Assembly (NCBI GenBank): GCA_002937455.1
Contig: PTJZ01000002.1
Span: forward strand, 186,001-250,000
Length of the DNA: 64,000 bases
Reading direction: 5' to 3'
DNA from: Alphaproteobacteria bacterium MarineAlpha11_Bin1
GTDB taxonomy: Bacteria; Pseudomonadota; Alphaproteobacteria; MPNO01; UBA830
The notes under the pieces are model-generated. The model saw only the letters and a list, made by a program, of their open reading frames with translations. It was not told the DNA's origin and did no database searches. Positions 17,646 through 34,468 of the stretch are shown here, one piece after another. How positions within the stretch are numbered: the first letter of the stretch is position 1; the number at the start of each line of letters is the position of its first letter. The translations under genes were made by a program, and so were the position numbers.

Positions 17646-17653
17646 ATTTCTAC

Positions 17654-17690
17654 GGGGCTGCCTTTGATTTTTGGCAGCCCCTTCATTTTC
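17654..17690 (+). terminator. Stem-loop terminator/attenuator between aapJ and aapQ
   Basis: GGGGCTGCC (17654-17662) and GGCAGCCCC (17673-17681) form a perfect 9-bp stem with a 10-nt loop, followed by TTCATTTTC. It lies 9 bp after the aapJ stop and about 50 bp before aapQ. Placement between a binding-protein gene and its permease genes suggests partial termination or 3'-end protection that makes AapJ more abundant than the membrane parts. Confidence 0.8.
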
Positions 17691-17739
17691 AAATTCAAAC
17701 AAGGTGGCAGATTGCTAAAATGTTAGAAAGTCTGCCTTA

Positions 17740-18906
17740 ATGACCAGTCGTATAAACTTTCGAAACATATGGTTCGATAAACGTGGGCGTGGGTACCTGC
17801 TACAACTCCTCGTGTTATTCGGCGTTGCCATCTTCTTGGCAGTCATAACTTCAAATACACTCGCCAACCTGCAAAGAGCGGGCCTCACGTCCGGTTTTGG
17901 TTTTCTCGGCGATCAAGCTTTTTTCGACATTAACCAGCGCCTAATCGACTACACCTCACAGTCTTCCTTTGGAAGAGCATTAATTGTTGGCCTGTTAAAC
18001 ACTGTCCTGGTCTCGTGCCTTGGAATAATAACAGCCACTTTAATAGGTTTTGTTGCAGGAATACTAAGGCTCTCCAATAACTGGCTGGTAAGTCGACTTA
18101 TTACTTCTTACGTGGAGATCACCCGAAACGTCCCGCTCTTGCTGCAGATTATTCTTTGGTGGTCCATTTTAACAAGCCTGCCAAAAGTTAGAGATAGCAT
18201 GTCTATCTTTGGTGCATTCTTCCTGAATAATCGTGGATTACGTGCGCCATCCCCGGATTTTGAAGCTCCATTTCTATGGTTATTTGCGGCAGTATTTCTT
18301 TCCGTACTCGCCACAGTAGCTATCTCTATTTGGTCGCGCCGTCGTCAGAAACTTACTGGAAAGACCTTTCCTGTAGTTTTTTCCGGCCTCATCCTGTTAC
18401 TGGTTGTCCCTATCTTTGTGTTTTACCTGTTGGGCCAGCCTATCAGCTGGGACATCCCTGCGAAGACACGTTTCAATTTTGGGGGCGGTTTCAATATTAC
18501 TCCCGAACTACTTGCGCTTTGGGTTGCCCTTGCCACTTACACGGGGGCTTTTATATCAGAAATCGTAAGAGCAGGAATCCTCTCCGTTAGTGCCGGCCAA
18601 TCCGAAGCAGCTCTATCCCTCGGCCTCCGGAAGAATCAGACAATGCGTTTAGTAACTATACCTCAAGCACTTCGTGTGATTATCCCGCCGTTAACAAGTC
18701 AGTATTTAAATCTTACAAAAAATTCATCTTTGGCAATTGCCATTGGATATCAGGATCTCGTTTCTATTGGCGGAACAATTCTGAACCAAAGCGGGCACGC
18801 GCTTGAGGTCGTTGCAATCTGGATGTTCGTTTACCTTAGCCTCAGTCTTGCTACCTCGGCCTTTATGAATTGGTACAACAAGAAAATGTCTTTGGTAGAG
18901 CGCTGA
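17740..18906 (+). CDS. aapQ: General L-amino acid ABC transporter permease AapQ
   Basis: 388 residues, about eight membrane helices; the extended N-terminal region before the conserved permease core is characteristic of AapQ/BztB. The EAA loop appears as GQSEAALSLGLRKNQTMRLV (~287-306) followed by IPQALRVIIPPLTSQYLNL. Its TGA overlaps the ATG of aapM by one base. Transports broad L-amino acids with AapM and AapP. Confidence 0.92.
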   Translation: MTSRINFRNIWFDKRGRGYLLQLLVLFGVAIFLAVITSNTLANLQRAGLTSGFGFLGDQAFFDINQRLIDYTSQSSFGRALIVGLLNTVLVSCLGIITATLIGFVAGILRLSNNWLVSRLITSYVEITRNVPLLLQIILWWSILTSLPKVRDSMSIFGAFFLNNRGLRAPSPDFEAPFLWLFAAVFLSVLATVAISIWSRRRQKLTGKTFPVVFSGLILLLVVPIFVFYLLGQPISWDIPAKTRFNFGGGFNITPELLALWVALATYTGAFISEIVRAGILSVSAGQSEAALSLGLRKNQTMRLVTIPQALRVIIPPLTSQYLNLTKNSSLAIAIGYQDLVSIGGTILNQSGHALEVVAIWMFVYLSLSLATSAFMNWYNKKMSLVER

Positions 18907-20012
18907 TGATGAACCCCACGGACGACACAACCAAGCAATACATACAGGGCCGGCCACCGCCCCTAGCATCTACCGGGATCATAGGATGGCTTCGTCAGAA
19001 TCTCTTTTCGAGTATTTCGAATACAGTTTTAACTCTCGTTTCCATTTATCTTCTTTCGCTAGCCATACCAGCGATTCTGGACTGGATGTTACTAAGTTCT
19101 CAAATTTCTGGTGATACTAGGTTTGACTGCAAAGTCGATGGAGCTTGCTGGGCTTGGGTAGATCAACGCTTTGGACAATTTTTGTTCGGATTTTATCCAC
19201 CAGATGAAAGGTGGCGAGTTGTAATTGCTTTTATCCTTTTATTTCCGGCGCTCATTCCCTGGTTAACTAACGGCACACCCGGGGAACGTTACCTTCGATG
19301 GTTTTCGGTTACCTACCCCGTAATCGCTACGGTTCTTTTGGCAGGAGGGTTTGGCCTTCAGGAAGTCCCAACCGACAAGTTTGGTGGGTTTATGCTAAAT
19401 TTGATCGTGGGACTGTCGGGAATTGTCCTATCCCTCCCGGTTGGGATACTGCTAGCCCTCGGTAGACAGTCGAAATTACCCCTGATCCGGTGGTTCTCGA
19501 TAGGTTTTATTGAGGCGGTAAGAGGTGTTCCTCTGATAACGCTATTGTTCGTCTCAAATATACTTTTACCGATTTTCCTGCCACCAGATGTAACGCTAGA
19601 CTCGATCATTCGAGTTATCATAATGGTAACGGCTTTTGCATCCGCCTATATGGCAGAGGTAATTCGCGGCGGTCTCCAAGCAATACCCTCCGGTCAATAC
19701 GAAGCAGCTAACGCGATGGGTCTCAACTATTGGAAGTCGATGCGGCTAATCGTACTTCCCCAGGCTCTGAGGATATCGATACCGGGTATCGTCAATACAT
19801 TTATAGGTCTCTTTAAGGATACAACCTTGGTAATCGTGATTGGTCTTTTTGATATCCTAGGGATTGCCAATGCAATGGTTTCAAACCCTGACTGGCTTGG
19901 ATTGTCGACTGAAACTTATGTTTTTGTTGCGGTTTTCTTTTTCGCGGTTTGTTTTTCAATGTCACGATACTCCATGTGGCTCGAGCGACGACTAGGCGGA
20001 AAAGGGTATTAG
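18906..20012 (+). CDS. aapM: General L-amino acid ABC transporter permease AapM
   Basis: 368 residues from the ATG at 18906, which shares one base with the aapQ stop; an upstream in-frame start at 18870 would overlap aapQ by 37 bp and is less likely. Multiple membrane helices with a long first periplasmic loop and the EAA loop [20 protein letters not shown]. Ends 10 bp before aapP. Partner of AapQ in the membrane domain. Confidence 0.91.
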
Positions 20013-20022
20013 GAGTTTAGAG

Positions 20023-20793
20023 ATGAACGAAAAGGGATTTGATAAATCAAAAAATCAAAGCCGGGTCATACAGATTGAAGGCCTAAACAAATGGTTCGGC
20101 TCTTTCCATGTTCTGAGGGATGTTTCGTTGTCTGTTGGGCAAGGTGAAAAAATAGTCATCTGCGGCCCTTCCGGGAGCGGTAAATCTACGCTTATTCGTT
20201 GCATTAATTTTTTAGAGGAACACCAGGAAGGACAGATAATCGTCGATGGCATAGAGCTTACGGGGGACCTGAAGAATATTGATGCCGTTAGACGGGAGGT
20301 TGGAATGGTTTTTCAGTCATTCAACCTCTTCCCTCACCTATCCGTTATTGAAAATTGTACTCTCGCGCCAATATGGGTCCGAAAAACTCCACATGCAGAA
20401 GCCGAAGAACTCGCAATGGAATATCTTGATCGGGTAAAAATCCCGGAACAAGCGCACAAGTACCCTGGTCAACTCTCTGGCGGACAACAGCAAAGGGTCG
20501 CCATCGCGCGTTCCTTGTGTATGAAGCCCAAAATAATGTTGTTCGATGAGCCAACCTCCGCTCTCGATCCAGAGATGATCAAGGAGGTCCTGGACGTGAT
20601 GGTCGATCTTGCTGATTCCGGCATGACAATGCTTGTCGTCACCCATGAAATGGGTTTTGCCGCGCAGGTAGCCGATCAGGTAATCTTTATGGATGAAGGC
20701 CAGATCATTGAACAGAACACGCCCAATGAGTTTTTTGATAACCCGCAATCCGACCGAACCAAACTATTTTTAAGCCAAATTCTAAGTCACTGA
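20023..20793 (+). CDS. aapP: General L-amino acid ABC transporter ATP-binding protein
   Basis: 256 residues with all ATPase motifs: Walker [12 protein letters not shown]-loop [11 protein letters not shown], signature [13 protein letters not shown], Walker [14 protein letters not shown]-loop VVTHEM. Ribosome site GGAG upstream of the ATG. Last gene of aapJQMP. A diverged copy of its last ~50 codons lies at 24341-24503 between the CHAT genes, evidence of a local duplication. Confidence 0.95.
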
Positions 20794-20831
20794 TAAAACC
20801 ATTTCTCCGTCAATATTTTAATCAGCGGTTG

Positions 20832-20930
20832 TTACTCTTGAACGACGAGTGCGAATGGTGCCCAGAATATTGGGTGTGCATATGAGAATAGAGCTTTCCC
20901 GTTCTGATAAGTAAATTCTGGACCAGTGAA
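20832..20930 (-). pseudogene. Third CHAT-gene 3' end (relic)
   Basis: Directly behind aapP the minus strand reads YQNGKALFSYAHPIFWAPFA and stops, matching the C-terminus of the 24530-27727 CHAT protein (DQNGKTLFSFAHPIFWAPFT). Only about 32 codons remain; an in-frame stop lies just upstream and the next ~100 bp (20941-21043) match nothing I recognise. The same order, aapP tail then CHAT tail, recurs at 24341-24640, so this is the end of an earlier copy in a tandem duplication. Confidence 0.8.
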
Positions 20931-21043: not shown

Positions 21044-24000
21044 TTAGGGGAGTCCAATTAAACCAAATGCGCCCCAAAATATCGGGTGGGAGTAACTGAA
21101 TACCATCTGGTTTTCTGCTGTTTTAAAGCCACTATGATTTATTAAATAGCGATAGGATTGACCTGCTGCTTCCGATTTTGACAGTGTCGGGTCAACAATT
21201 TGCCGCTTGAATAGGTCCGTGGTTAGTAACCTAGCTGACGTCGTTTCAACCGGCCAATAGGTAACCAACATTGCACGTGCGCCTGCATAAAAGAATGCAC
21301 CTCCTAGTCCCGATATCGCTTCCGCCCCGCTACCATCTGCAGCACCAGTGTTGCATGCGGACAAGATGATCCAGTCGGCGTCAAGTCGCAGTGCCATAAT
21401 TTCGTCCATGGTCAGCAACCCGTCCTCATCACTTTCGGTGACCTTTGGTGAAGACATTGCTAGCGCCGGTTGTCGTAACCCATCGAGATCACCGGATACT
21501 AGCCCATGCGTGGCAAACGCCAAAACTTTGTACTTTTCTAAGGGCGCGGATTTGACGCTTTCCTCGGACGCACTGGCTCCAAGATAGATATCGCGGGATG
21601 GGTCTGCTCCCAACACTAGGGCGAGTTCGCGTATTTCATAGCCTGTATCCGGCAGTTGCGGGAGATCTCCAAGTTTGGCAGAACGCAGGAGCGTTGTTTG
21701 CGGTGAAGCCCGAAAAGTAAAATCTGGAGCGCCGCGCAGAGTGGCGGCGCGAGACGAACTCTCAGGTGTTTTTTTTAGACCCGAATCAGAAAAGATAGGG
21801 TCGCCAAAACCGGCAAATGAGAGTTGAGGTTTCGGTTTTCTCACCATGCCGCGCAAAAACCGCAGTGATGACACGGAGGGCAGTGTTGCAATGTCAAAGG
21901 TGTTAATGATCCAGTCGACATTGCGATAACCAGAGAATAGTGGGGTTGCCTCAAGATTTGGAGTTGTCACGCTCATTGGTAGGACCGCTAGCGGCAATGT
22001 CCCAAGAGCGGCGTGAGGCACATATATTAAAGTCTCTCCATCTTGCCAATTTTCAGCACTCTCAGCGAATAGCAGGTTAAACAATTTGTTGCCAGCTGCT
22101 ACATCAAAGTCCGGGATGTCCGCAAGGGATACAATTCCTCGCGGGTCAAGGCCAGTACGCACGTCGTGTATAAGCTGACCTATATCGTTTCTCGACCTCT
22201 CAACCACGTGCATGCCAATAGCGCCTGATTTTGGAATGTTCCAGACAAATGTTCGTCGATCCCCTATATAGACAGATAAGAGTCTCTCGTTCTCACGCAA
22301 AAGTCCTCGGGCTGCTTCGACGCTTATACGGGGGGGATTTATAAGTTCTGCGTATCCGGGAAAATTATGCTCGATTTCTTGCATAAGTGCAGCGCGCGCG
22401 ATCCGGAGTTTAGTGATAAGGTTCCGAGCGTCATTTTGTGTTGCATCATTTATTACACCGTTAAGCGTTCCAGCGGAAAGGCTGGCCCATTGGGCACTGA
22501 TCTGCCGTTGTAGGTCTTGTTCGCGTCTCGCTAAATCTGCAAGCCTCGGGTTCAATACTGCAGCGCGTGCACTGTTTCGTGCGAGCATTCTCTCGACTTT
22601 GCTTGACCGCGCTGCGTCGGCGATTTTGAAAGCTTCATTGATTACATCGAATTTTATACTCGCTTCGATAGATGTTCCGCGTATATTCGCTAGTAAGCCT
22701 ATATAGCTTTCAAGCACCATACGGCGCTTGAATGTAATGGACCTGGTTCCTTCAGAGTGCGTTTCTGACTGGCGAGAACGTTGCAACATTAAAGGTACTG
22801 CCTCAGCGAACATTTTTACAGCGATCCGGGGGCTTCCTGCTTGAGCATACGCCATTGCAAGAAATGCTTTCGTTTCAACTGTGTCATAATGTTTATTTCC
22901 AAGGACGCGCGTTAGACGAACCAGTCTTGATTCCAGCATTGGGATGGCGCGGTCTGGTTGATTACTTTTTATCAAAGATAAAGCATGGTCAGGTGCGCCG
23001 GCGAATTTAGCATTGAACGCACCTTGATTAATTCCAAGCTCACTCTGAATTAAGTCATATTGCTCAGTGGCTTTCTTCCATTTCCCTAGAGCCATATACG
23101 AACGCGCTAAATTATTTCTAGCTTCAGCCCTATATATGGAACTCTTTAAGACGCAGTCCAAATTTCCCAAAGAAATTGTTAATTTTGCCATGTCGGCTGC
23201 TTCGACGTATCGGCCTTGCTCATACAGCACTGTGCTGTAACTATTACGGATCGGCATCGCCGAGACTCGGCTCATACCCTCGCTGCCCAATGCCATGATC
23301 AATATTGCTTCCGCTTCGACTAGCCGGCCTTGCTTCATGCGGATCCAAGACAGATGAGAAAGGATCCTATTGTATCGAGGGTTGTCACTCGTAACTGACT
23401 TTAATGCTGATCGAGCATTCTCGAATGCCCGGGCAGCCTCGTCGAGACGGCCAACTGCTTCAAGGTATGCCCCCTCGCCGCGTGCACGCCAAAAAACCGA
23501 CCAGTTGTCCGATGAGCGGCCCCTCGACAAGGAAACATACTTACGGGACGCCTCAGTGTCTCCGTTCAGAGCTGCAAGGTATGCCAACTGTCCCATATGG
23601 TTTCGTAGTCGCCCCCCTGAGCTGAGGCGGGCGGAACGCTTGAGCCACTCAAACGCGGGAATTGTCTCGCCCATACGTTCATACGCCTTGGAAATAGATG
23701 CCGTTAGCTCAGACGGAAGGTCCGTTACATCCCAGTCCTTGAGATATCTAATTTCTTCAGGAGTTTGGCCCACCAAATCTCCGCGGTTAAAGATCCTAGT
23801 CAACACCGTCACGCTCTGATGGAAGAATTTACTACTAGTGTTGTTTGGATCGTTACAAACGTTTGGTCGGGCCTCAAAAAAACTCAATAAGTCCGGGCGC
23901 ATGCCAGGGTCGTGAATGGTCCGTTCCGGGATTCGGAGAGACAGAGACTTGAAGCTGGTAGATATATTCTTGGCCTCTTGAACAGACATCATTTGCGAAG

Positions 24001-24088
24001 TCTTACAGCCGGTTAAGATAATAGCCGAGGTTGTGGTGATTAGGGCCGTGGTTAACAGTTTAAGGAATTTTGTATGCCTCTTAATCAC
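21044..24088 (-). CDS. TPR-CHAT caspase-like lipoprotein
   Basis: 1014 residues. An N-terminal lipoprotein signal ends in lipobox LTGC (Cys ~28). TPR-like helices fill roughly residues 150-450, with a long helical linker after them. The C-terminal ~320 residues are a CHAT domain (clan CD, caspase/separase-like). The catalytic dyad is visible as His in FATHGLVSGDLDG (~861) and Cys in LSACNTGAADG (~914). The start is GTG at 24088 with GGAG upstream. It is the distal gene of the cyclase-CHAT cluster and is paralogous to 24530-27727. Predicted periplasmic protease or protein-protein platform; substrate unknown. Confidence 0.88.
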   Translation of the reverse strand: MIKRHTKFLKLLTTALITTTSAIILTGCKTSQMMSVQEAKNISTSFKSLSLRIPERTIHDPGMRPDLLSFFEARPNVCNDPNNTSSKFFHQSVTVLTRIFNRGDLVGQTPEEIRYLKDWDVTDLPSELTASISKAYERMGETIPAFEWLKRSARLSSGGRLRNHMGQLAYLAALNGDTEASRKYVSLSRGRSSDNWSVFWRARGEGAYLEAVGRLDEAARAFENARSALKSVTSDNPRYNRILSHLSWIRMKQGRLVEAEAILIMALGSEGMSRVSAMPIRNSYSTVLYEQGRYVEAADMAKLTISLGNLDCVLKSSIYRAEARNNLARSYMALGKWKKATEQYDLIQSELGINQGAFNAKFAGAPDHALSLIKSNQPDRAIPMLESRLVRLTRVLGNKHYDTVETKAFLAMAYAQAGSPRIAVKMFAEAVPLMLQRSRQSETHSEGTRSITFKRRMVLESYIGLLANIRGTSIEASIKFDVINEAFKIADAARSSKVERMLARNSARAAVLNPRLADLARREQDLQRQISAQWASLSAGTLNGVINDATQNDARNLITKLRIARAALMQEIEHNFPGYAELINPPRISVEAARGLLRENERLLSVYIGDRRTFVWNIPKSGAIGMHVVERSRNDIGQLIHDVRTGLDPRGIVSLADIPDFDVAAGNKLFNLLFAESAENWQDGETLIYVPHAALGTLPLAVLPMSVTTPNLEATPLFSGYRNVDWIINTFDIATLPSVSSLRFLRGMVRKPKPQLSFAGFGDPIFSDSGLKKTPESSSRAATLRGAPDFTFRASPQTTLLRSAKLGDLPQLPDTGYEIRELALVLGADPSRDIYLGASASEESVKSAPLEKYKVLAFATHGLVSGDLDGLRQPALAMSSPKVTESDEDGLLTMDEIMALRLDADWIILSACNTGAADGSGAEAISGLGGAFFYAGARAMLVTYWPVETTSARLLTTDLFKRQIVDPTLSKSEAAGQSYRYLINHSGFKTAENQMVFSYSHPIFWGAFGLIGLP

Positions 24089-24340
24089 AGTATTTCTCTC
24101 CAGAGGGTACCCTTAGAGCGAAGGGTAAAAAAAAATTTATCTGAGTCTGGTGTATTTTAAATCATCCGTACGGTACGAAACGCTGGATAACGGCGTTAAC
24201 AGATTATCTGGCATTTTTTTGTCAGAAATTTGGGACGAGAGGATAGGCGTCTTAAGCCTCTAACCCCAGGCTAAAATAAGCGGCCAGAATACATCGTACT
24301 TGGACCGATGTGCAAAAAATCTAAGACGTATGAATTGCTT
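24089..24340. other. Spacer upstream of the CHAT lipoprotein gene
   Basis: Non-coding in all frames as far as I can see. It contains a 7-bp inverted repeat TACCCTT/AAGGGTA (24108-24127), in the leader of the CHAT gene, and the palindrome CCGTACGG near 24170. No clear promoter can be named. With the adjoining aapP relic it makes a 441-bp gap between the two CHAT genes, large enough for a separate promoter. Confidence 0.5.
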
Positions 24341-24503
24341 ATGCCGATAGCGATAACAACGTCACAACTCATGAAATAGATTTTACCGCCCAGATCATCT
24401 TCATGGATGAAGGTCAGATCGTCGAACAGAACACGCCTAATGAGTTCTTCGACAATCCTCGATCCGATCGAACCAAGTTTTTTGATGCAGATATTAAATT
24501 ACT
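24341..24503 (+). pseudogene. Duplicated, decayed 3' fragment of aapP
   Basis: The plus strand reads [20 protein letters not shown] followed by NPRSDRTKFF, against [20 protein letters not shown] and PQSDRTKLF at the end of AapP. About four codons (VADQ region) are deleted, no Walker motifs remain, and the DNA has diverged by many substitutions. It is followed directly by the 3' end of the CHAT gene on the other strand, repeating the aapP-CHAT junction at 20.8 kb. It marks the left border of a tandem duplication unit. Confidence 0.85.
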
Positions 24504-24529
24504 AATACCGTCTTCTCTGAATCTTTTTA

Positions 24530-27500
24530 CTAATAAACGGTTGTTCCTCCATCACCAACGAGTGTGAATGGCGCCCAGAATATCGGGTGTGCAAATGAGA
24601 AAAGAGTTTTCCCGTTCTGATCGGTATATCCCGGCCCATTAAGTAATTGAACCATTGACCGACGCACTGCCTGTGCACGACTAAGACCGGGTTGATCGGC
24701 CTGCCGCCTGAATATGTCAGTTGTAAGTTTCTTGGCAGAAATTGTCTCGACCGGCCAATTTGAGACCAGTAAAGCTCTAGCACCGGCATAAAAGAAGGCT
24801 CTCGCAAGTCCCGACATCGCCTCGGTCGTTTCGCTATCGGCGCTCCCCGTATTACACGCAGATAGAACTATCCAATCCGCATCAAGCCTCAACGCAAGGA
24901 TTTCGCCGAGGGTGAGAAGACCGTCACCGCCTTCTTCGCTAACAGCTGGCGATGTCATCGCGAGGGCGGGCTCCGTCAGCCCATCCAAGTCACCCGCCAT
25001 AAGGCCATGGGTTGCAAAAACAATGACCTTGTATTTAGAAAGGTTCAGCTCCTTTACCTTATTTTCAGTGGCCTCACGTCCAAGAAAGACATCCCTTTCC
25101 AGGTCCGCCTTACTTACTTTTGCAATGCCAATCACCTCTTCCGCGGTGTCGGGCAGCCTCGGCAAAAGCGCAATATCTGCAGTCGAGACACCACTCAGTT
25201 TCGGTGCAGCGCGGAGTTGGATAGGAAGACCTCTGACCGTTACTCTAGTATCAGTTACCTGCAGCTTCTTGCGATTTTTATCAGCCTCAAAAGCCTGCTG
25301 CTTACTGAAAAGGGGATCGCCTATTCCGACAAAGCTTTTTCTCTCTAGCTTATTGGATGGAAAGTTACGCAATGCGATCAAAGACGAGACAGACGGAACG
25401 ACAGCGACGGAATGGCTCTGAATAAGGAAGGGAACCTTCTTGTAACTGGCGAAATAAGATTCCGGATGCGCTTCAAGCTCAGTCTGTTTCGTGACCATTA
25501 CAGAGAAAGGTAGCTGGCCAAGCGGCCCGTCTGGGATCACCAGCAGGTCCTTCGCTCCTTTCCAGCCTTCAGCAACGGGTTCCAAAATCTCTCGGTAAAT
25601 CCTACCCGCAAGTTTCACATTAAACGCTGGGATATCGTCAAGTGTCTCAACGACGGGATTTAGGGACCTACGCAGAGAACCAATATCTTTCTGAAGCTTC
25701 TCCCTGCCAATATCTGATGCACTGAAGGTAACCTCACCCGACTTTGGGATCGCCCAGACAAAGGTCTTCTCGTCTCCTACATGCGTAACGATCAAGGCCT
25801 CCCCCGGCCGGAGAGACGCCCTTAATGTTTTCAAAGAGACCGGCTTCGGGTTCATAAGATTAGAATATTCCGGGAATCTCTCTTCTATCTCTTCAGCTAA
25901 AGATACCCGTGCATTATTAATATCCGAGATCTGATTGCGCAGCTTCTCGAGCGCTACCTCACCCCCTTGACCGCCGGCTTGGTTAATACGGCTCAGAAGT
26001 AGCCCATTCCGGTTTTTTGAGCGCTGCACTAGATCTTGATACTTTCGTACCAGATCAGATAAATCTTTACTCCCTGCCGCAGCCCTCGTTGATGAAGCTG
26101 CAAATGCCTTCTGCACCGAACCGCTGGCCGCGAGTTGGGCAACTTCGAACGCCTTCATCGATATGGCCGGATCCTTCTCCCTTGCGAAGACTTTAGACAA
26201 CTGGTCCAGATAAGCTTCGTGAATTATCCGCTTCCATTGGTTGAACTCCGCGTCTCTTGTGCTCTCCAACGCACTTCTTCGGGAGTGCTCGGAAACAATA
26301 GGCAACACCCCCTCAAGGAGAGTGAGTGATTCATCATCTTTATCTGATCGGTTCAACACAACGCCAAGCGCCCCCCTCGACAGCGCAGTCGTAATAGATT
26401 TCTCGCCTAGGATCTCGCGATTAAATGTAATAAGCGCGGATAGAAGTTTTTCCGCTTCCACGTTTCTCCCCGAAAAAGAAAGCGCAAGGCCGTGCGCAGG
26501 TGATGTTCTAAGCGTCGAATTTAAAATACTGGGTCGGTCTCCGATCGCCGCCTGGACAAACGAAAATTCAGCCCCGGCCTCCCTCCAAAGGCCTAAACCA
26601 GCAAGAGCCCGTGCGCGCACAAGATGCGCCTTCAGTTTCCCGGTATTGTTTTTGGCCAGCCCCGCTGCCGTGTGAAAGCCGATTATCTTACTTGTAATCG
26701 TCTCTGCATCTTTCAAACGGCCCTGAGCCAACAAGACATTAGAAAGAGATAAAAGGTGATTCGTGGTGACAATAGAATTTGGACCAGTGCCTGCAAGTGA
26801 ACCCTTAATCGCGGTTCGGATCACACTTTCGGCCTCAGCAGAACGACCCGCACGTACAAGTAAGTTGACATAAAGATCGACAGCACGGCCGTACTTTCTT
26901 CTTAGTCGAAAACTCCCTGCTTCTTCTGAAATCGCGCCGCCTTGCGAGGATTGATATCCTCTTTCGACAAGTCTTTTGCAGTCTTTTACTGCTTGTCGCA
27001 TTTGTTGTATTGCACGGTCTAAGCGCCCCTTTTCTCGTTGGACAAGGCCCAGCATCTGGAAACGATAGCAATCCCAGAGCTCTCCAAAATTATCGTATGC
27101 GCGATAAGACCTTATTTCAGAGTATAGTATTTCGGCCTGAACGGTCTCTTTTTCAGCCTCATCTAAGAGCCCCGCTCGAGCAAGAAGGCTGGCGTCAGAT
27201 GCATGATTTCGAAAATGAAATCCATTTCCGTGGCCCGCGAAATCACTTCTTATTTTACGCATCGAATCGATCGCATCGTCGACGAATCCAGTTTCAATTA
27301 GAACCTCCGCAAGGTCCTCACGAATATTCCGTATAAAGCGACTCGGCTTTTTTAGAGCTAAATTTAGGTCACGTATTTCCTCGTTCGAGCGCCCCCGCCG
27401 AGCATTCGCCTGACTTCTCAGATAATAAAATTCCGACTTCTTGCTATCGTTGAGACCTAATGGGGGTTCTGAGTCCGCAAGTATTCTGTCAGCGTCGAGT

Positions 27501-27727
27501 TGTTTTGGATCCGTTGGACGTTGACTATTAAGTAATTTCTCAATGTCGGAAATCGATTTTGGAGGCACGACGAACGCGCGCCCATCTAACTTCTGGATTG
27601 TGGTTTCGGAGTCGCCACCAAAAGTATCGGGCTCTGATATACCGAGATCGTCTGCCCAACTTATTGTCGCGGGGCTAACAATGAAAAAAATTATAAGAAT
27701 CGGAAAAAGGAGGTGATGATATTTCAA
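24530..27727 (-). CDS. Exported TPR-CHAT caspase-like protein
   Basis: 1065 residues. The TTG start at 27727 is supported by GGAGG seven bases upstream and leads into a Sec signal peptide (LLFPILIIFFIVSPATISWA), so it is predicted to be soluble in the periplasm, in contrast to its lipoprotein paralogue. TPR-like repeats span roughly residues 100-470. The C-terminal CHAT domain keeps the His in FATHGLMAGDLDG (~908) and the Cys in LSACNTGSADSE (~958). It lies 41 bp downstream of the CHASE2 cyclase gene in the same direction, so the two are probably co-transcribed. Confidence 0.88.
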   Translation of the reverse strand: MKYHHLLFPILIIFFIVSPATISWADDLGISEPDTFGGDSETTIQKLDGRAFVVPPKSISDIEKLLNSQRPTDPKQLDADRILADSEPPLGLNDSKKSEFYYLRSQANARRGRSNEEIRDLNLALKKPSRFIRNIREDLAEVLIETGFVDDAIDSMRKIRSDFAGHGNGFHFRNHASDASLLARAGLLDEAEKETVQAEILYSEIRSYRAYDNFGELWDCYRFQMLGLVQREKGRLDRAIQQMRQAVKDCKRLVERGYQSSQGGAISEEAGSFRLRRKYGRAVDLYVNLLVRAGRSAEAESVIRTAIKGSLAGTGPNSIVTTNHLLSLSNVLLAQGRLKDAETITSKIIGFHTAAGLAKNNTGKLKAHLVRARALAGLGLWREAGAEFSFVQAAIGDRPSILNSTLRTSPAHGLALSFSGRNVEAEKLLSALITFNREILGEKSITTALSRGALGVVLNRSDKDDESLTLLEGVLPIVSEHSRRSALESTRDAEFNQWKRIIHEAYLDQLSKVFAREKDPAISMKAFEVAQLAASGSVQKAFAASSTRAAAGSKDLSDLVRKYQDLVQRSKNRNGLLLSRINQAGGQGGEVALEKLRNQISDINNARVSLAEEIEERFPEYSNLMNPKPVSLKTLRASLRPGEALIVTHVGDEKTFVWAIPKSGEVTFSASDIGREKLQKDIGSLRRSLNPVVETLDDIPAFNVKLAGRIYREILEPVAEGWKGAKDLLVIPDGPLGQLPFSVMVTKQTELEAHPESYFASYKKVPFLIQSHSVAVVPSVSSLIALRNFPSNKLERKSFVGIGDPLFSKQQAFEADKNRKKLQVTDTRVTVRGLPIQLRAAPKLSGVSTADIALLPRLPDTAEEVIGIAKVSKADLERDVFLGREATENKVKELNLSKYKVIVFATHGLMAGDLDGLTEPALAMTSPAVSEEGGDGLLTLGEILALRLDADWIVLSACNTGSADSETTEAMSGLARAFFYAGARALLVSNWPVETISAKKLTTDIFRRQADQPGLSRAQAVRRSMVQLLNGPGYTDQNGKTLFSFAHPIFWAPFTLVGDGGTTVY

Positions 27728-27768
27728 AAGAACCTCCGGAAAATTGATTGAATTATCACGTACTCCGT

Positions 27769-29919
27769 TTATTTATCCGTCAAGATGTTAATGGGAGACC
27801 AACCGTCCGCGGGAGGGTTTTCCGAGAGGTAGGAGGCTTTTTCATGAAGTCGTTTCGAGAGATCATCTTCTTCGTGTACAGCTTGCAATAGATCTCTCAC
27901 GACAGAAAACTCACCATTATACCACGCAGCCAACGCTAACTCGTAGGTTCGGCATATCTCTCGTGTCTGCAGAGGTATATCTACCTTTGCTCCCACCGGT
28001 TCATATATCGAAATAGGATTCTCCTTACCTACAACCTGTATTTTATCGACTTTTCGGCAAAGTATTTGCTCATCAACTAACTTTTTAGTTGTTTCAGATA
28101 ACAAGATCTCCGTCCCGAATGCCTTGTTAGCTCCCTCTAACCGGGAAGCAGTGTTCACCACGTCTCCTATTACAGTGTAATTAAATCGTCTTTCAGAGCC
28201 GATGTTTCCAACTAGCGCCTTTCCGGTGTTAATCCCTATTCTCGCCATTAACTGAAGGCTGCCGAAGTCAGCGTTAAAATTTAATTCCTTGAGCCTTTTC
28301 CGGCAGCCTATTGCCGCGGCTACGGCGTCTTTACTGTGACTTTCTATCTCTAATGGAGCACCAAATACGGCAACGATCGCATCTCCAATATATTTGTCAA
28401 CGAACCCTCCATGCTCCTCGATAATATTTGTCATCGCCGAAAGGTATTTGTTGAGCAAAAGGACAAGCTCTTGCGGATCATATTTCTCAGAAAATTTTGT
28501 AAATCCTGCGAGATCCGAAAACAAAACCGTTATTTCCCTCTCCTCGCCCCCGAGTTTAGGGGGTCGTTCAGACTTGACGAGTTCATCAACGACAACCGGA
28601 GACAGGTAAAATTTAAAATTACTACGGAGATTCCTCTGAGATTTTTCCGTTATAACAAAACGGTAACCTAAGATCCCTGTGAAGGTTATTAAAGAAGCAA
28701 TAACCGCCTGTAAAAACGGAAGGACGTAGAAGCTGGACAGGCCGTTAACCCCCAAAGCAAAAAAACCTAGCATCGAGGCAATACTGGCAATTGCGGCAAC
28801 AATGGGTCGGACGAAACCGGCAATCAGTCCGATATAAACAGCGAAAGCGAAACAAATGCCAAAGATAGTCGTACCATTCGGTTCAATCAAATATTCTTGC
28901 AATAAAATATTACTCACTGCCGTTGCCTGAACCAAAACCCCGGGGACAGTTGGCCGAGTGGAACCCGAAACTGCAGCGTATTCGGGATGACCCTCTGTGC
29001 ACCTTTTACCAAACGATAACTTATCTGGTTTTGTTGCGTATCTATTTGACGTGGACAGTCGGTCTTCTATATCCAGCCAAGTCCCTAATAGAACCACCTT
29101 CCCCTGAAATTTTTTACGAAGAAAATCAGTGTTTCCTTCTGTAATACAGCGATGAATATCCTCTATCGAGTGAGCACGAATTGCCTGAGACCCCGATCCA
29201 AAATTTAGCAAGATAGTGTTTTCAATTGAATCGGAAAGCCCGCGCCGTCCTACCCTAAGTTGTTCGCGGAGCAGTAATGCCGGTTCTTTCCCAATAGCTC
29301 TTGCGGCTATTTCAAGAGAGAAGGAAGGCTCTTTAATTTCTTTCTTTTCTTCTAGACCTTTTTTGTCAAAGAAAAGTGGCGATCTCCGGACAATTTCATC
29401 GGGGTCGGAAACAAGATTTGCGGCTCTAATATTTTTGCTTCCATAAACAGCAAAGCTCTGGCCGCGGAAAGGTACAATAGGCTCACGCCCATGTTGTACT
29501 TTTGCGAGAACAATTCGACCATCTTTAGCGCCTCTTCTTAAAACCCTCAAAAACTCTCTTTCATGCCTTGGCACAAATTTATCAATTGTGGTGGGAAATA
29601 TGAAATCGAGCCCTATCACTCTCGCCTTAGCATCAAGAAGCCCCCCAATTACCCTCGCAATATGGGGGGTCCAGAATACTTTCGGCGTGCCCGCGAAGGG
29701 TGGGGTCCGATATGTAGTTTCATCTAAAGCAATTATCGAAATTGGAGCATCGATAGAGCGATCATGATTCTCACCCAGAATGCTTGTTCCACCGAAAAGG
29801 AGATCCAGAGAAATTCCTTTTAGAAAGTTTAGCGGCGGGGAAACTGTTAAGAGCGTTGATATAGCCGCAATTATTACAATGGAGGTGAATGACTTAAATC
29901 GCGTTCGCCCCCGGAACAT
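27769..29919 (-). CDS. CHASE2 receptor adenylate cyclase (class III)
   Basis: 716 residues. After an N-terminal membrane anchor, an extracytoplasmic CHASE2 sensor domain covers roughly residues 40-330 (PISIIALDETTY, ARVIGLDFIF). About three membrane helices follow (~345-430), then a cytoplasmic class III cyclase domain (~455-640). Catalytic residues are intact: metal Asp in FSDLAGFT (~467) and in IGDAIVAVFG (~511), Lys in VDKYIGDA, Asp in NYTVIGDVV and Asn/Arg in VNTASRLEG, which favours ATP as substrate. It starts one base after the stop of the exported 237-aa protein, so the two are coupled. It should turn a periplasmic signal into cytoplasmic cAMP. Confidence 0.92.
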   Translation of the reverse strand: MFRGRTRFKSFTSIVIIAAISTLLTVSPPLNFLKGISLDLLFGGTSILGENHDRSIDAPISIIALDETTYRTPPFAGTPKVFWTPHIARVIGGLLDAKARVIGLDFIFPTTIDKFVPRHEREFLRVLRRGAKDGRIVLAKVQHGREPIVPFRGQSFAVYGSKNIRAANLVSDPDEIVRRSPLFFDKKGLEEKKEIKEPSFSLEIAARAIGKEPALLLREQLRVGRRGLSDSIENTILLNFGSGSQAIRAHSIEDIHRCITEGNTDFLRKKFQGKVVLLGTWLDIEDRLSTSNRYATKPDKLSFGKRCTEGHPEYAAVSGSTRPTVPGVLVQATAVSNILLQEYLIEPNGTTIFGICFAFAVYIGLIAGFVRPIVAAIASIASMLGFFALGVNGLSSFYVLPFLQAVIASLITFTGILGYRFVITEKSQRNLRSNFKFYLSPVVVDELVKSERPPKLGGEEREITVLFSDLAGFTKFSEKYDPQELVLLLNKYLSAMTNIIEEHGGFVDKYIGDAIVAVFGAPLEIESHSKDAVAAAIGCRKRLKELNFNADFGSLQLMARIGINTGKALVGNIGSERRFNYTVIGDVVNTASRLEGANKAFGTEILLSETTKKLVDEQILCRKVDKIQVVGKENPISIYEPVGAKVDIPLQTREICRTYELALAAWYNGEFSVVRDLLQAVHEEDDLSKRLHEKASYLSENPPADGWSPINILTDK

Positions 29920-29920
29920 G

Positions 29921-30634
29921 TTATTTATCCGCTAAGCGTATTAGACGTTCAATTATAGTAGTGGTTCCTGCGACCGCTGATTCATGAATCACGAATTCAA
30001 TACTCTGTTTACCAACCGTCGCACGGTATTTCGAGCCCGGTTTGAGTGTAATTTCTAACTTCGCTAAATCGACAAACTTACCCCGTAGTAGATCCTTGGT
30101 GCTTATCATCAGCTCGAATTCCATTTTCGATGGTTGCACTTGATGCAACTGGAATTGTTCGGCGTCGCCAACTTCAATAATTGGTGATACATGTTTTATA
30201 ATTATCTTTGGTTTACTTGCAGGACTTTTTTTTCGTTGAGGTGCTCGGAAGGCCAATACTCCAGAAGCCTTTCCCTGCGACTTTGTTAGGGAAAGTTTGG
30301 TACTGGGACATATAGTTACTCGACGGTATAGACTTCCTCCCGTGACAACACTCTGATGAAGTCCGACAATCACTCGACCGCCAACGATAGTTTCCTGAGT
30401 GCAGGACGAAAAATAACTTAAAGAAATTAATTCTTTTGCTTTGAGATCAATTACTTGACCTTCTCGAACATAATCCATGAATTCCAGGTTAATTCCGGGG
30501 GCTGTGATCTCTTCGACAATTGCCCTCGGTACACCAGCCGCACATAAACCCGACGCAAACGCGCTTAAAAGTAACCCCGCTGCTACCACTGCACTTGGAC
30601 ACTTAAACCTTTTGGGTATACTAAAACCTTTCAA
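29921..30634 (-). CDS. Exported protein of unknown function, first gene of the cyclase-CHAT cluster
   Basis: 237 residues with a Sec signal (VVAAGLLLSAFASGLCAAG) and a beta-rich body; no catalytic motif is visible. The segment REGQVIDLKAKELISLSYFS recalls FecR-like domains of exported regulatory proteins, but similarity is faint. Two internal Cys (SSCTQE, TICPS) could form a disulfide. The start is TTG at 30634 after GGGAGG; no better ATG is available. Coupling to the CHASE2 cyclase (1-bp gap) suggests it is a periplasmic partner or signal carrier for CHASE2. Confidence 0.65.
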   Translation of the reverse strand: MKGFSIPKRFKCPSAVVAAGLLLSAFASGLCAAGVPRAIVEEITAPGINLEFMDYVREGQVIDLKAKELISLSYFSSCTQETIVGGRVIVGLHQSVVTGGSLYRRVTICPSTKLSLTKSQGKASGVLAFRAPQRKKSPASKPKIIIKHVSPIIEVGDAEQFQLHQVQPSKMEFELMISTKDLLRGKFVDLAKLEITLKPGSKYRATVGKQSIEFVIHESAVAGTTTIIERLIRLADK

Positions 30635-30921: not shown

Positions 30922-32571
30922 CTAATCTTCGTCCTCGCCCCTCAAGGTCCTAACCTCTGTATTCATAGTTAAGTCGCTTCGGCGGCGCTGCGCTATAATT
31001 TCACCGGTCTTGAAATAATCGCTCTCGACGGCACGTTGCGCCATAACATCAAATTCTTCTTCCCATTCCCCAAGGGAATAACCATGCCATGGCACCTGTG
31101 GCCTGAGTTCCGGCAGGCCGAGCTCATCCCATATTTCTTTGGCGTTCTCCATGTATTCCTTTTTTGGCAGTGAAATCGGTGGAAAATCTTCTTTAAGAGT
31201 TGCATCGAAAAGAACAGAAGCATCCTCCCCGCCGTTTCGCGCACTTCGGGGACCGTGTCCTGAGTCCCGGTGCTTCAAAATTTCAACATCTAGTGCTGGA
31301 TTGGCGCGGTAGGCCATGGCCCAGAACACCGCATCGGCGTTATTCGGGTCAATGTCGTCATTTACCGCAATCACGTATTTACCCGCTGCGCGGTGGAGAG
31401 ATGCAGCGCCATACATAGCGCGCCAGACTTCTGTTGTCGGCATTCCGCGTTCGCAGATTATTACGATTAGTTTGCGGATATTGGTCAATGGTTCATGCAT
31501 CGAGACCCGGATAATACCCTTGATGCCAAGGTGATCACGTAGGTGCTCAGTGAACATTGGTTCGTAGGCAACTCGCTTAATAACAGAGGACTCAGATGGC
31601 GTGACCTGGCTGATGATAGAAGTCAGAATTGCATCTCGCTTCCTCGTTATACAGGTAACATCCATAAAGGCGTTGTATTCTTGGAGGTTCACGTGCCCGT
31701 GGGACTCACCAAAAGGTGCTTCGGGTTCCAGGTACTCCGTGTCGATATAACCCTCAATCACGATTTCAGCCTCGGCCGGGACCATGAGATCGACGGTTTT
31801 GGCCTTGACGATATTTATCGGCGAACCAGCAAGCGCGCCGGCAACGCGGAATTCGTCAATATCTTCTTTCAGCTTTATTGCTGACGTGAAGGTCACGGCC
31901 GGCGGCGCGCCCAGCACCACGGCTGCAGGCATTTTTTTCCCCAGTTTCTTGTGCTTTTCCCAGTGAATGAATATACCTGGACGTAGTTCCAGAGACGGGT
32001 TCATACCCATTCTCTTTTGGCTCTTGATCTGCCCTCTGTAGTTGCCCATGTTCTGGATCCCACTATCAGGATCCTTAGTGATGTACTGCGACAAAGTCGT
32101 ATAGGGGGCATTATCCCAGCCAGGTGTTGATATTGGCACAGGGATACCGTCTAGTCCCTGCCCCGCGACATCTAGGTCATCTCCCTCCCAGACGACTTCT
32201 TGGCAAGGAGCATTCTTTACCTCTGTGGGGTCTATCGGATTAGCCGTCGCGCGTTTCCATGTCTCCTCAATTTCGTCCAGCTCGCAGCCGATGCCGGTAC
32301 GGTAGATATCACGGCTAGCCGCAAGTACTCCGACGGCTACCGGGATATCAAACTTTCGCCCCTTTGAGTCCACAACGTTAGTGAACAGGAATGCCTTACG
32401 GTCTTTTTCTTCCAGCCCGCCCCGAAACTGCCACCGAACCAAAGGATGTAACTCGGTATCCTTATTTATTTCTCGATCAACCCGCACAAGAAGGCCTCGC
32501 CGATCGAGCTCCTCAAGGTGGTCGTGCAGATCCGGATAGTCGCGCTTCACCGTCTTTTCACTCTTTATCAT
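30922..32571 (-). CDS. UbiD-family decarboxylase, paralogue 1
   Basis: 549 residues, the length of UbiD/phenolic-acid/aroyl decarboxylases, which use prenylated FMN to (de)carboxylate aromatic or unsaturated acids. The family hallmark with the acidic active-site residues is LEPEAPFGESHGHVNLQEYN. Other blocks are LVRWQFRGG near residue 44 and SQVTPSESSVIKR. Third of three tandem UbiD genes on the minus strand. The ATG at 32571 lies inside the end of a small open frame that precedes it. No UbiX (prFMN synthase) is found in the window. Confidence 0.9.
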   Translation of the reverse strand: MIKSEKTVKRDYPDLHDHLEELDRRGLLVRVDREINKDTELHPLVRWQFRGGLEEKDRKAFLFTNVVDSKGRKFDIPVAVGVLAASRDIYRTGIGCELDEIEETWKRATANPIDPTEVKNAPCQEVVWEGDDLDVAGQGLDGIPVPISTPGWDNAPYTTLSQYITKDPDSGIQNMGNYRGQIKSQKRMGMNPSLELRPGIFIHWEKHKKLGKKMPAAVVLGAPPAVTFTSAIKLKEDIDEFRVAGALAGSPINIVKAKTVDLMVPAEAEIVIEGYIDTEYLEPEAPFGESHGHVNLQEYNAFMDVTCITRKRDAILTSIISQVTPSESSVIKRVAYEPMFTEHLRDHLGIKGIIRVSMHEPLTNIRKLIVIICERGMPTTEVWRAMYGAASLHRAAGKYVIAVNDDIDPNNADAVFWAMAYRANPALDVEILKHRDSGHGPRSARNGGEDASVLFDATLKEDFPPISLPKKEYMENAKEIWDELGLPELRPQVPWHGYSLGEWEEEFDVMAQRAVESDYFKTGEIIAQRRRSDLTMNTEVRTLRGEDED

Positions 32572-32635
32572 TTTCCGCGTTCCAGTGTAGGTAGTTGTAG
32601 TCGTAACTCGGACATTTGGGCAGATACATCAACAT
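32558..32635 (-). CDS. Possible 25-residue microprotein between UbiD genes
   Basis: The gap between UbiD paralogues 2 and 1 is open for 47 codons in one frame (32558-32701), directly after the in-frame TAA of paralogue 2. The composition looks protein-like: YLPKCPSYDYNYLHW near the end. An ATG at 32635 preceded by AAGGA gives 25 residues; a longer product would need a non-standard start (ATT) or read-through of the TAA. Its TGA overlaps the next UbiD start by 14 bp, which would couple translation. It does not resemble the zinc-ribbon subunit D of hydroxyarylic acid decarboxylases. Confidence 0.3.
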   Translation of the reverse strand: MLMYLPKCPSYDYNYLHWNAENDKE

Positions 32636-32701
32636 CTCATCACATTCCTTACCAGACTTATGATCGATACGAACTTCACTCTCGCCGCTGTAAATGGCCC
32701 G

Positions 32702-34435
32702 TTACTTGTCCTTCTCCCTAACTTGTGAGGCATCTTCCAGCTTGTCCCAAGTCAGGTTCTCGTCGACATCGTCACCGGCTCCCGGATTTCCCATGTCGAG
32801 CGTCCGGACTTCGGTGTTGATGGGCACGTCACCGCGCCGGCGTTGCGCAATGATCTGACCCGTTGTCCAGTACTCACTCTTCACCGCTCGTCGGGCCATG
32901 GCCTCTAATCCAGTATTCCATTCACCAAGATCGTATCCGAACCACGGCGCCTTAGGTTTGAGTTTGGGAAGTCCAAGGTCCTCCCAGATTTTCTTCGCCT
33001 TTTCCATATACTCGCGTTTAGGCAACGAAACCGGAGGGAAAGTCTCTTTTAGGGTCGCATCAATCAACACCGCGCTATCTTCGGAGTCCAGTAAACTTCG
33101 CGGACCGTGTCCCTCATGCTTATGCTTTAGGATTTCGACGTCGTTATGCGGTTTGCAACGATACGACATCGCCCAGAAGACGGCATCAGTATCGTCGGGA
33201 TCGATGTCTTCGTTTACCGCTATTATCCACTTACCCTCCGCCTGACGCAGGGAGGCAACACCATACATAGCACGCCAGATTTCCGTGCGAGGAACGCTGC
33301 GCTCTAGCACTATGATGATTAACTTGTGAAGCGAGGTAAGAGGTTCATGCGTTGAAACGTGTTTGACCCCCTTAATTCCCAGATGATCCCTCAGGTGTTC
33401 TATCTGTCGCGCCTCATAAGCGGGCCGCTTGATGGTCCCCGACTCCGATGGCGTAACCTGGCTCACCCAAGACGTCATAACGGACTTCTTGCGGCGCGTG
33501 ATAGCCGTGATATCAAGGTAAGCGTTGTATTCCTGCAGATTTACGTGTCCATGTGACTCCCCAAACGGTGCCTCCGGCTCTAGCAGTTCGGTAGAGACAA
33601 AGCCCTCGATAACGATTTCCGATTCTGCGGGCACGATCAAATCAACCGTCCTGCATTTAGTGACATTGAGCGGGGCACCCGCGAGCCCTCCGGATACTGC
33701 TAGCTCATCTACCTTTTCTGGCACTTTTTGAACAGCGGTGAAGGATACAACCGGCGGTGCACCGACAACTACGGCGACCGGCATCGGCTTTCCGAGTTTT
33801 TTCCATTCAAGCCAGTGCATGTAACCGCCGGTCCGTAATTCTGTAGAGGGGTTCATCCCTAGCCTGTTGGGCGCTTTAACCATGCCTCGGTAATTGCCCA
33901 TATTCTGGACACCGGTATTTGGATCCTTGGTGATGAAGTGTGACGAAGAAAAATAAGGTGCGTTGTCCCATCCCGGCGACGAGATTGGGACCGGGATTGC
34001 ATCCAAACCATTGCCGTTCAGTAGATCGTCCCCTTCGAATACCAGATCATGGCAGGGCGCGTCGCCGTCGGGGACCTTGTTGGGTTCAAGTGGGTTGTTG
34101 ATGGCATTAATCCATGTATTTTTTAGATCTTTCAGATCGCAGCGCATGCCAAGCTGATAGATTTCTTGATTGCCTGCGAGACCGCAGACTAATACTGGGA
34201 TGTCATACTTCCGTCCCTTTGAATCCGTAATGTTGGTGAATAGAAAAGCCTTACGCTCTTCTTCATCGATGCCGCCGCGAAACTGCCATCGGACAAGCGG
34301 ATGCATTTCCGTATCCTTGTTGATCTCGCGATCTATCTCGACAAGAAGACCTTTCTCCCGCAGTTCTTCAATATGTTCGTGAAGATCGGTATAACCGCGA
34401 TCTTCCAGCGTCGTACCTGCCGTTTTAGTTGGCAT
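32702..34435 (-). CDS. UbiD-family decarboxylase, paralogue 2
   Basis: 577 residues from ATG 34435 (MPTKTAGTTLED); a TTG at 34450 is an alternative. Contains LVRWQFRGGIDEEERKAFLF, the active-site block LLEPEAPFGESHGHVNLQEY and SQVTPSESGTIKR. It is about 30 residues longer at the C-terminus than its neighbours (DMGNPGAGDDVDENLTWDKL). Lies 33 bp downstream of paralogue 3. Prenyl-FMN dependence is expected from the family. Substrate unknown; the adjacent carboxylate uptake genes suggest an aromatic or heteroaromatic acid. Confidence 0.9.
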   Translation of the reverse strand: MPTKTAGTTLEDRGYTDLHEHIEELREKGLLVEIDREINKDTEMHPLVRWQFRGGIDEEERKAFLFTNITDSKGRKYDIPVLVCGLAGNQEIYQLGMRCDLKDLKNTWINAINNPLEPNKVPDGDAPCHDLVFEGDDLLNGNGLDAIPVPISSPGWDNAPYFSSSHFITKDPNTGVQNMGNYRGMVKAPNRLGMNPSTELRTGGYMHWLEWKKLGKPMPVAVVVGAPPVVSFTAVQKVPEKVDELAVSGGLAGAPLNVTKCRTVDLIVPAESEIVIEGFVSTELLEPEAPFGESHGHVNLQEYNAYLDITAITRRKKSVMTSWVSQVTPSESGTIKRPAYEARQIEHLRDHLGIKGVKHVSTHEPLTSLHKLIIIVLERSVPRTEIWRAMYGVASLRQAEGKWIIAVNEDIDPDDTDAVFWAMSYRCKPHNDVEILKHKHEGHGPRSLLDSEDSAVLIDATLKETFPPVSLPKREYMEKAKKIWEDLGLPKLKPKAPWFGYDLGEWNTGLEAMARRAVKSEYWTTGQIIAQRRRGDVPINTEVRTLDMGNPGAGDDVDENLTWDKLEDASQVREKDK

Positions 34436-34468
34436 CTCTATGCACTCCAATTATTGGGTTTGTTTACT

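Follow-up and report, generated by a model that had tools for sequence, protein, structure and literature searches.

What connects a cyclase carrying a CHASE2 sensor domain with caspase-like proteins that appear to be exported? To our knowledge, the signals sensed by CHASE2 domains are largely unknown. The question is raised here by a locus in a 64,000-nucleotide stretch of Alphaproteobacteria bacterium MarineAlpha11_Bin1 (the window; contig PTJZ01000002.1, positions 186,001 to 250,000), in which genes for a 237-aa protein, a CHASE2 cyclase and two large TPR-CHAT proteins follow one another (Table 1).

Locus organization and encoded proteins

Gaps of 1, 41 and 441 bp separate the genes, read from the 237-aa protein through the cyclase and the 1065-aa protein to the 1014-aa protein; the open reading frame (ORF) listing agrees with the coordinates, gaps and single direction given by a first-pass annotation of the window. 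Three of the four genes have non-ATG starts (TTG, TTG, and GTG). In addition, we observe a 240-bp imperfect direct repeat (76%), with one copy on either side of the gene for the 1014-aa protein.

Table 1. Features of the locus in window coordinates
Feature	Position	Strand	Basis or content
237-aa protein gene	29921..30634	-	ORF
CHASE2 class III cyclase gene (predicted adenylate cyclase), 716 aa	27769..29919	-	ORF + Pfam
CHASE2 sensor domain, residues 23-365	28825..29853	-	Pfam 1.9e-25
Class III cyclase catalytic domain, residues 461-634	28018..28539	-	Pfam Guanylate_cyc 1.9e-28
TPR-CHAT protein 1 gene, 1065 aa	24530..27727	-	ORF + Pfam
CHAT domain of protein 1, residues 705-1059, His907 + Cys958	24551..25615	-	Pfam
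TPR-CHAT protein 2 gene, 1014 aa	21044..24088	-	ORF + Pfam
CHAT domain of protein 2, residues 665-1012, His861 + Cys912	21053..22096	-	Pfam
Repeat copy 1	24400..24638	.	protein 1 gene 3' end + remnant of ABC-transporter ATPase gene 3' end
Repeat copy 2	20686..20925	.	ABC ATPase gene 3' end + remnant of a CHAT gene 3' end

Pfam recovers both the sensor and the catalytic domain in the 716-aa protein, as the first-pass annotation had proposed. One of its hydrophobic segments (8-26) precedes the sensor domain, and the others (352-370 and 399-423) lie at the end of that domain or after it. The residues D469, K509, D513, D586, N589, and R593, which we take to be the catalytic positions, are all present. 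Among them Asp586, presumably the adenine-type residue of class III cyclases, suggests ATP as the substrate, and the protein should make cAMP.

No Pfam family was matched by the 237-aa protein in a Pfam scan, and no confident fold match was found for it. It has a hydrophobic segment at residues 15-33 (heuristic), is predicted to be exported, and comprises an N-terminal beta domain (~34-111) and a C-terminal Ig/FN3-like beta domain (~143-227). Cys 78 and Cys 109 are invariant across 65 aligned homologues.

The Pfam CHAT model (cut-off 24 bits) matches protein 1 at 3.7e-51 (174.7 bits) and protein 2, which is 32% identical to it, at 9.8e-39 (133.9 bits); TPR_12 exceeds its own cut-off in both. 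The motifs FATHG and SACNT start at residues 904 and 956 of protein 1 and at 858 and 910 of protein 2, so that the earlier reading of two TPR-CHAT proteins with intact His and Cys holds. A predicted model of protein 1 has a helical TPR region (~59-625) and a CHAT region (~643-1058). The catalytic His and Cys are invariant in 37 aligned CHATs with 28 to 39% identity to protein 1, an alignment that omits L139, L145, L146, and L151 from the 39 frames with a length of 900 aa or more, L139 and L145 being without the Cys motif. On these features, both large proteins are members of the TPR-CHAT protease family and predicted proteases. Few substrates are known for CHAT and C14 proteases.

Export signals, also claimed by the first-pass annotation, are present as heuristic predictions. 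Protein 1 has a Sec-type N terminus with a hydrophobic segment at residues 6-24, and protein 2, a predicted lipoprotein, has a weaker hydrophobic stretch that ends in the lipobox LTGC (Cys28) and no segment over the threshold used for the other three proteins. A cytoplasmic location of the CHAT proteins had been set beforehand as a refutation test; 13 of 15 pair-linked CHAT proteins look exported, counting those with frames alignable in length and omitting ten short, duplicate or edge frames.

Recurrence of the locus across genomes

The small-protein gene lies directly upstream of the cyclase gene in 78 of 80 cyclase loci (the best 80 of 553 confirmed matches). The constant core is this pair, with CHAT as a recurrent third partner. 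Among 385 genomes of the class, of which 184 contain CHASE2, 76 contain CHAT and at least 88 contain C14, we observe CHAT within 8 kb of 12 of 51 small-family places versus 0.21 expected, a comparison that assumes random placement and is uncorrected for kinship; one of the 51 places (G224, L221) was not recovered by a second profile. CHASE2 was unmatched beside the small family at 16 of the 51 places, some of which are weak matches or short contigs. CHAT lies within 8 kb of only 1 of 150 CHASE2 places (the best-scoring 150 of a longer list), and the CHAT link thus tracks cyclases with the 237-aa partner.

Gene order varies, the proteases being encoded upstream, downstream or convergently relative to the pair. 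There are at least eight changes on a tree of dereplicated cyclases that is enriched in CHAT loci, part of the set having been collected via CHAT. Absence of recurrent co-occurrence had also been set beforehand as a refutation test; the association is found again in other genomes, with several different gene orders, and the linkage of pair and protease is well supported. The CHAT-linked pair is present, for instance, in two Ferrovibrio MAGs (L054 and L061).

Other proteases also occupy this neighborhood. A C14 caspase is encoded beside the small gene in 16 loci, with the dyad intact in 13 of 13 checked, and an M48 peptidase in 21; in both groups the cyclase is usually present too. Eight of the small-family places have C14, and only four of these, near relatives, have the CHASE2 cyclase. 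Counting L203-L206, which look like near relatives, once gives 5 observed versus 0.56 expected (p 3e-4), again under random placement and uncorrected for kinship. Some Azospirillum carry a TpsB secretion gene in place of the protease; in Azospirillum sp. B510 and A. lipoferum 4B the small-protein, cyclase and TpsB genes are consecutive. Because 29 of 78 dereplicated cyclases, many from Bradyrhizobium, have no CHAT, C14, M48, or TpsB match nearby, the pair can evidently occur with no protease linked to it. The term "four-gene cluster" used by the first-pass annotation describes the genes correctly and is too narrow, since at other loci C14 or M48 stands in for CHAT, or CHAT is missing; the constant unit is small protein plus cyclase. 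That the pair stays constant while the type of protease beside it changes is an argument for envelope proteolysis as an input to, or an output of, this CHASE2 cyclase.

A proposed relay and its alternatives

We infer both the direction of signaling and the protease substrate as follows. The locus would be a relay from envelope to cytoplasm, with the partner protein beyond the inner membrane, on the CHASE2 domain or close to it. Through its TPR part a CHAT protein would recognize either a signal or a scaffold; once activated, the protease would cut the partner, or a third protein held by it, and the cut would change cyclase activity and with it cytoplasmic cAMP. Gating of cAMP synthesis by the protease, as proposed in the first-pass annotation, belongs to this inferred part. 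The same role would fall to an exported C14 caspase, or to an M48 metallopeptidase, in other lineages, and the Sec-type and lipoprotein CHAT paralogues could be two proteases in different envelope compartments. We put even odds on this model, in which cyclase activity is governed by an exported protease through its action on the small partner or on a third protein. Several results weigh against it: cyclases with no linked protease, small-family places lacking a CHASE2 match, the C14 places without the cyclase, the 22 of 33 close CHAT homologues located away from the pair, CRP-like sites that are not in excess, and the lack of a confident fold match for the small protein. More tentatively, and with the balance of probability somewhat against it, the locus may represent an undescribed class of transmembrane signaling in which an exported CHAT or C14 (or M48) protease processes a beta-sandwich partner and thereby switches a CHASE2 cyclase.

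The same linkage of pair and proteases would also arise if signaling ran in reverse, the cyclase sensing an envelope signal via its small partner and the exported proteases being cAMP-controlled outputs kept nearby for co-regulation. Different protease types, or TpsB in some Azospirillum, fit a variable-output slot of this kind. However, proteases placed upstream, downstream or convergently do not form a simple output operon, and CRP-like sites in the window are not in excess (20 versus 22 expected, with the E. coli consensus); we consider this direction unlikely, if a serious competitor. It is less probable still that the TPR-CHAT proteins are envelope scaffolds or ligand receptors in which the CHAT fold is only structural, given the invariant His and Cys and the replacement of CHAT by C14 with intact dyads and by M48.

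Conflict systems often contain CHAT and C14 proteases, and Pycsar cyclase models in PADLOC give scores for the catalytic domain, both of which would suit a conflict or cell-death module with the caspase-like protein as executioner and cAMP as trigger. Against this, the proteases look exported, the other three proteins receive only weak PADLOC matches, and the adenine-type Asp586 is present, leaving such a module highly improbable; the "defence relay" of the first-pass annotation finds no support in PADLOC output that consists of generic cyclase models and weak CHAT-protein matches. Chance neighborhood of functionally unrelated genes would be in keeping with the 22 of 33 close CHAT homologues that do not adjoin the pair and sit elsewhere in the genome, and with counts that ignore kinship, but the excess of CHAT near the small family, the several gene orders and the repeated changes on the tree make it equally remote.

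Comparison with known systems

The closest likeness of the CHAT proteins is to Csx29 of the type III-E CRISPR Craspase, which has TPR and CHAT with His/Cys and a fold that aligns with the protein 1 model. In the accessible part of one report, Csx29 cuts an inhibitor and thereby controls a regulator (PMC10028731). However, Csx29 is bound to Cas7-11, whereas the proteins here look exported and their linked output is a cyclase. Cas7-11 is larger than 1065 aa, the length of the longest complete ORF in the window; judged by ORF length, the window holds no gene of Cas7-11 size, and Craspase identity, which calls for Cas7-11/gRAMP beside the TPR-CHAT gene, was rejected. Pycsar consists of a cyclase next to a cyclic-nucleotide effector. 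Pycsar identity was likewise rejected, as the PADLOC scan of the four proteins gives Pycsar scores to the cyclase alone, and these come from 13 different PycC models.

The CHASE2 adenylate cyclases CyaD1, CyaD2, and CyaK of Sinorhizobium meliloti, acting with NsrA and Clr, are inner-membrane proteins responding to an extracellular protein signal, and the available portions of these papers mention neither an envelope protease nor a 237-aa partner (PMC13001267, PMC7529298). In magnetotactic bacteria, MtxA resembles the 237-aa protein in being encoded just before a CHASE2 adenylate cyclase and in combining a signal peptide with a beta-rich region and an Ig-like domain; unlike it, MtxA has a C-terminal TPR part, and no protease is mentioned in the accessible text (PMC4439547). 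MtxA was not among the listed matches to the 237-aa family, and its N-terminal part is missing from its solved structure.

As far as the available text goes, the BiofilmReg operon also encodes an exported-type partner, a FecR-LysM protein with a predicted signal peptide, beside a CHASE2 receptor, which in that case is a histidine kinase and not a cyclase (PMC5192318). The Pfam FecR model does not match the 237-aa protein itself, and FecR is absent from the 24 Pfam families matched by any of the 65 small-family members at E up to 1, a test in which HMMER filters discard most weak matches. Finally, Trichodesmium erythraeum joins a caspase-fold domain to CHASE2 in a single fused metacaspase protein, the caspase part of which its authors place in the cytoplasm, and the sections at hand mention no cyclase (PMC3501461, PMC2853523).

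Implications for CHASE2 signaling

Extracytoplasmic proteolysis is familiar mainly through sigma factors as its outputs. RseA is the sigma-factor example of proteolytic control, and Csx30 is a cytoplasmic parallel in the part of the Craspase report at hand (PMC10028731). The proteases encoded beside the pair in relatives suggest, at the level of sequence, a link between cAMP signaling and the cutting of proteins beyond the cytoplasm. A dedicated pair with interchangeable proteases provides CHASE2 with a candidate partner and also with an input that can be tested. If the proposed relay is correct, a second messenger would join the outputs of extracytoplasmic proteolysis, and proteolysis outside the cytoplasm would be read as cAMP.

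Organization of the cluster

The four genes lie on one strand at the positions given by the first-pass annotation, separated by successive gaps of 1, 41, and 441 bp. Its reading of a CHASE2 class III cyclase with two TPR-CHAT proteins is borne out by Pfam, and the catalytic motifs FATHG and SACNT, carrying the His/Cys dyad, are intact in both CHAT domains. The catalytic residues of the cyclase are likewise all present (D469, K509, D513, D586, N589, and R593). Export of the small protein and of both CHAT proteins, as also claimed there, is predicted by heuristics: the N-terminus is hydrophobic in the 237-aa and 1065-aa proteins, and the 1014-aa protein carries the lipobox LTGC. The cluster adjoins what we take, from reading the sequence, to be an amino-acid ABC transporter operon and three tandem paralogous UbiD-type decarboxylase-like genes.

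Features of the cluster and of related loci (positions are those of the window, or of the locus named)
Feature	Coordinates	Strand	Pfam
Amino-acid ABC transporter operon (presumed)	16575-20793		
Direct repeat, one copy	20686-20925		
1014-aa protein gene	21044-24088	-	TPR + CHAT
Direct repeat, other copy	24400-24638		
1065-aa protein gene	24530-27727	-	TPR + CHAT
Cyclase gene	27769-29919	-	CHASE2 + Guanylate_cyc
237-aa protein gene	29921-30634	-	no family
UbiD-type decarboxylase-like genes (presumed)	30922-36139		
Long frame, locus L003	15153-22091	opposite to cyclase	DUF5649 repeats
TPS-C14 protein gene, locus L067	13883-21445		
TPR-CHAT gene, locus L150	1963-3675		

An imperfect 240-bp direct repeat (76% identity), with the 1014-aa CHAT gene between its copies, explains part of the 441-bp gap. 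Each copy brings together the 3' ends of two genes, the ABC-transporter ATPase gene and a CHAT gene; in one copy the ATPase part is a remnant, and in the other the CHAT part is. This structure is consistent with an earlier tandem duplication of the ATPase/CHAT junction, within which the putative lipoprotein CHAT gene now lies, and the repeat would be the scar of that event.

CHAT genes recur beside the pair

The recurrence in other genomes of CHAT next to the small protein and cyclase (the pair) is confirmed. Among 385 evenly drawn genomes of the class, the small family occupies 51 places in 45 genomes and CHAT (PF12770) 133 places in 76 genomes. CHAT lies within 8 kb of the small-family gene at 12 of the 51 places, versus 0.21 expected under random placement (Poisson, 1.3e-17, uncorrected for kinship), and it occurs anywhere in 31 of the 45 genomes with the small family versus 45 of the 340 without it. 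By comparison, only 1 of the best-scoring 150 CHASE2 places listed has CHAT within 8 kb (Fisher, 2.6e-7 versus 12/51), which indicates that the link tracks the small family and its cyclases and not CHASE2 generally. That one place is on contig 88 of genome G037, with no small-family match within 8 kb.

The reverse search yielded 33 places in the same genomes with CHAT close to the 1065-aa protein: 11 adjoin the small protein and cyclase, 2 (loci L145 and L150) adjoin a cyclase fragment or a different cyclase, and 20 have neither the pair nor such a cyclase beside them. At L150, the cyclase gene that directly precedes the TPR-CHAT gene encodes a 2Fe-2S (Fer2) domain and gives no CHASE2 match.

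Within the best 80 cyclase loci, a CHAT homologue was found in the fetched flanks of 8, upstream of and co-directional with the pair in five (L003, L004, L006, L008, and L010) and downstream and convergent in three (L047, L054, and L061); the order seen in the window (small protein, cyclase, CHAT, co-directional) is also found in L133. Homologues of the 1065-aa protein (E ≤1e-10) occur anywhere in 17 of 30 hand-picked cyclase-locus genomes that include the 8 with adjoining CHAT, so that some cyclase-bearing genomes carry unlinked CHAT. L003 also has, about 3 kb past its cyclase, a long frame with DUF5649 repeats (12 stretches) that is adhesin-like by composition.

Other proteases in place of CHAT

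In L017, a gene upstream of the pair encodes a protein that looks exported and has a C14 caspase domain. Searches with this protein recovered C14 in 16 loci, comprising 9 of the best 80 cyclase loci (L017, L021, L025, L034, L049, L058, L062, L066, and L067) and 7 loci of the 51-place set (L192, L193, L203 to L206, and L215). With one further place added, C14 is near the small family at 8 of the 51 places among the matches listed, versus 0.56 expected; the small gene is next to a CHASE2 cyclase in 4 of these (L203 to L206, near relatives), and no CHASE2 match was found at L192, L193, L215, and the place in G037. Peptidase_C14 was present in 11 of 11 loci scanned by profile, and GHG and DxC dyad motifs in 13 of 13 loci checked, out of the 16.

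In 21 loci, a gene for an M48 metallopeptidase follows in the same orientation; these loci include at least two places fetched twice (L077/L210 and L063/L218). In three of the 21 (L225 to L227), where weak small-family matches are followed by M48, no cyclase was found. L079 has a weak M48 match upstream of the cyclase and no small-family match. Four further small-family genes (L195, L196, L198, and L201) are without a cyclase, and their neighbors are presumably a MerR regulator and a metal P-type ATPase.

ShlB/TpsB comes next in several Azospirillum loci, as identified by Pfam for one and by similarity for the others. The annotations of Azospirillum sp. B510 and A. lipoferum 4B show this gene as well and list the small protein as a "hypothetical protein." L067, from Azospirillum griseum, encodes a 2521-aa TpsA-like protein with a TPS secretion domain and a C14 domain at its C-terminal end, adjoining both a TpsB gene and the pair. 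In L021 (Azospirillum), the C14 domain stands at the end of a frame that contains MBG_2 repeats and is broken by the contig end, which places any secretion domain beyond view.

Dereplication of 112 cyclases at 85% left 78 for a single FastTree tree, whose neighbors are CHAT in 20, C14 in 12, M48 in 15, Tps in 2, and none in 29; CHAT loci are overrepresented, since part of the set was fetched through CHAT. Minimum changes on the tree number 8 for CHAT, 5 for C14, and 3 for M48, and the biggest protease-free group is formed by Bradyrhizobium and relatives.

A possible proteolytic input to the sensor pair

The association is real and recurrent, and it extends beyond the four-gene CHASE2-CHAT cluster first described, taking in a new family of partner proteins and proteases that replace one another. 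Adjacency is conserved and catalytic residues are intact in both cyclase and protease. Since two caspase-clan types, CHAT and C14, and the metallopeptidase M48 are exchanged beside one sensor pair, proteolysis emerges as the common element, and this exchange is the strongest argument for linking it to the pair. Judging from their sequences, the proteases and the partner are likely exported and may meet outside the inner membrane, where the small partner would contact CHASE2 and the protease could act on the partner or on a third protein; control may run from the protease to the cyclase or, less likely, the other way.

Precedents exist for parts of such a system. Csx29 cleaves Csx30 and thereby relieves sigma factor inhibition (PMC10028731), and Sinorhizobium meliloti CHASE2 cyclases answer a protein signal via the outer-membrane protein NsrA (PMC13001267, PMC7529298). 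The nearest published connection of a caspase fold to CHASE2 that we found is one fusion protein, from Trichodesmium (PMC3501461, PMC2853523); the metacaspase operon section of PMC3501461 names no cyclase. Our search for CHASE2 or a cyclase together with CHAT, caspase, or FecR, which lay mostly outside the subscription literature, found no account of the combination seen here. Extracytoplasmic proteolysis controlling a transmembrane signal is a known theme, which would here involve a cyclase, and the small partner family is new.
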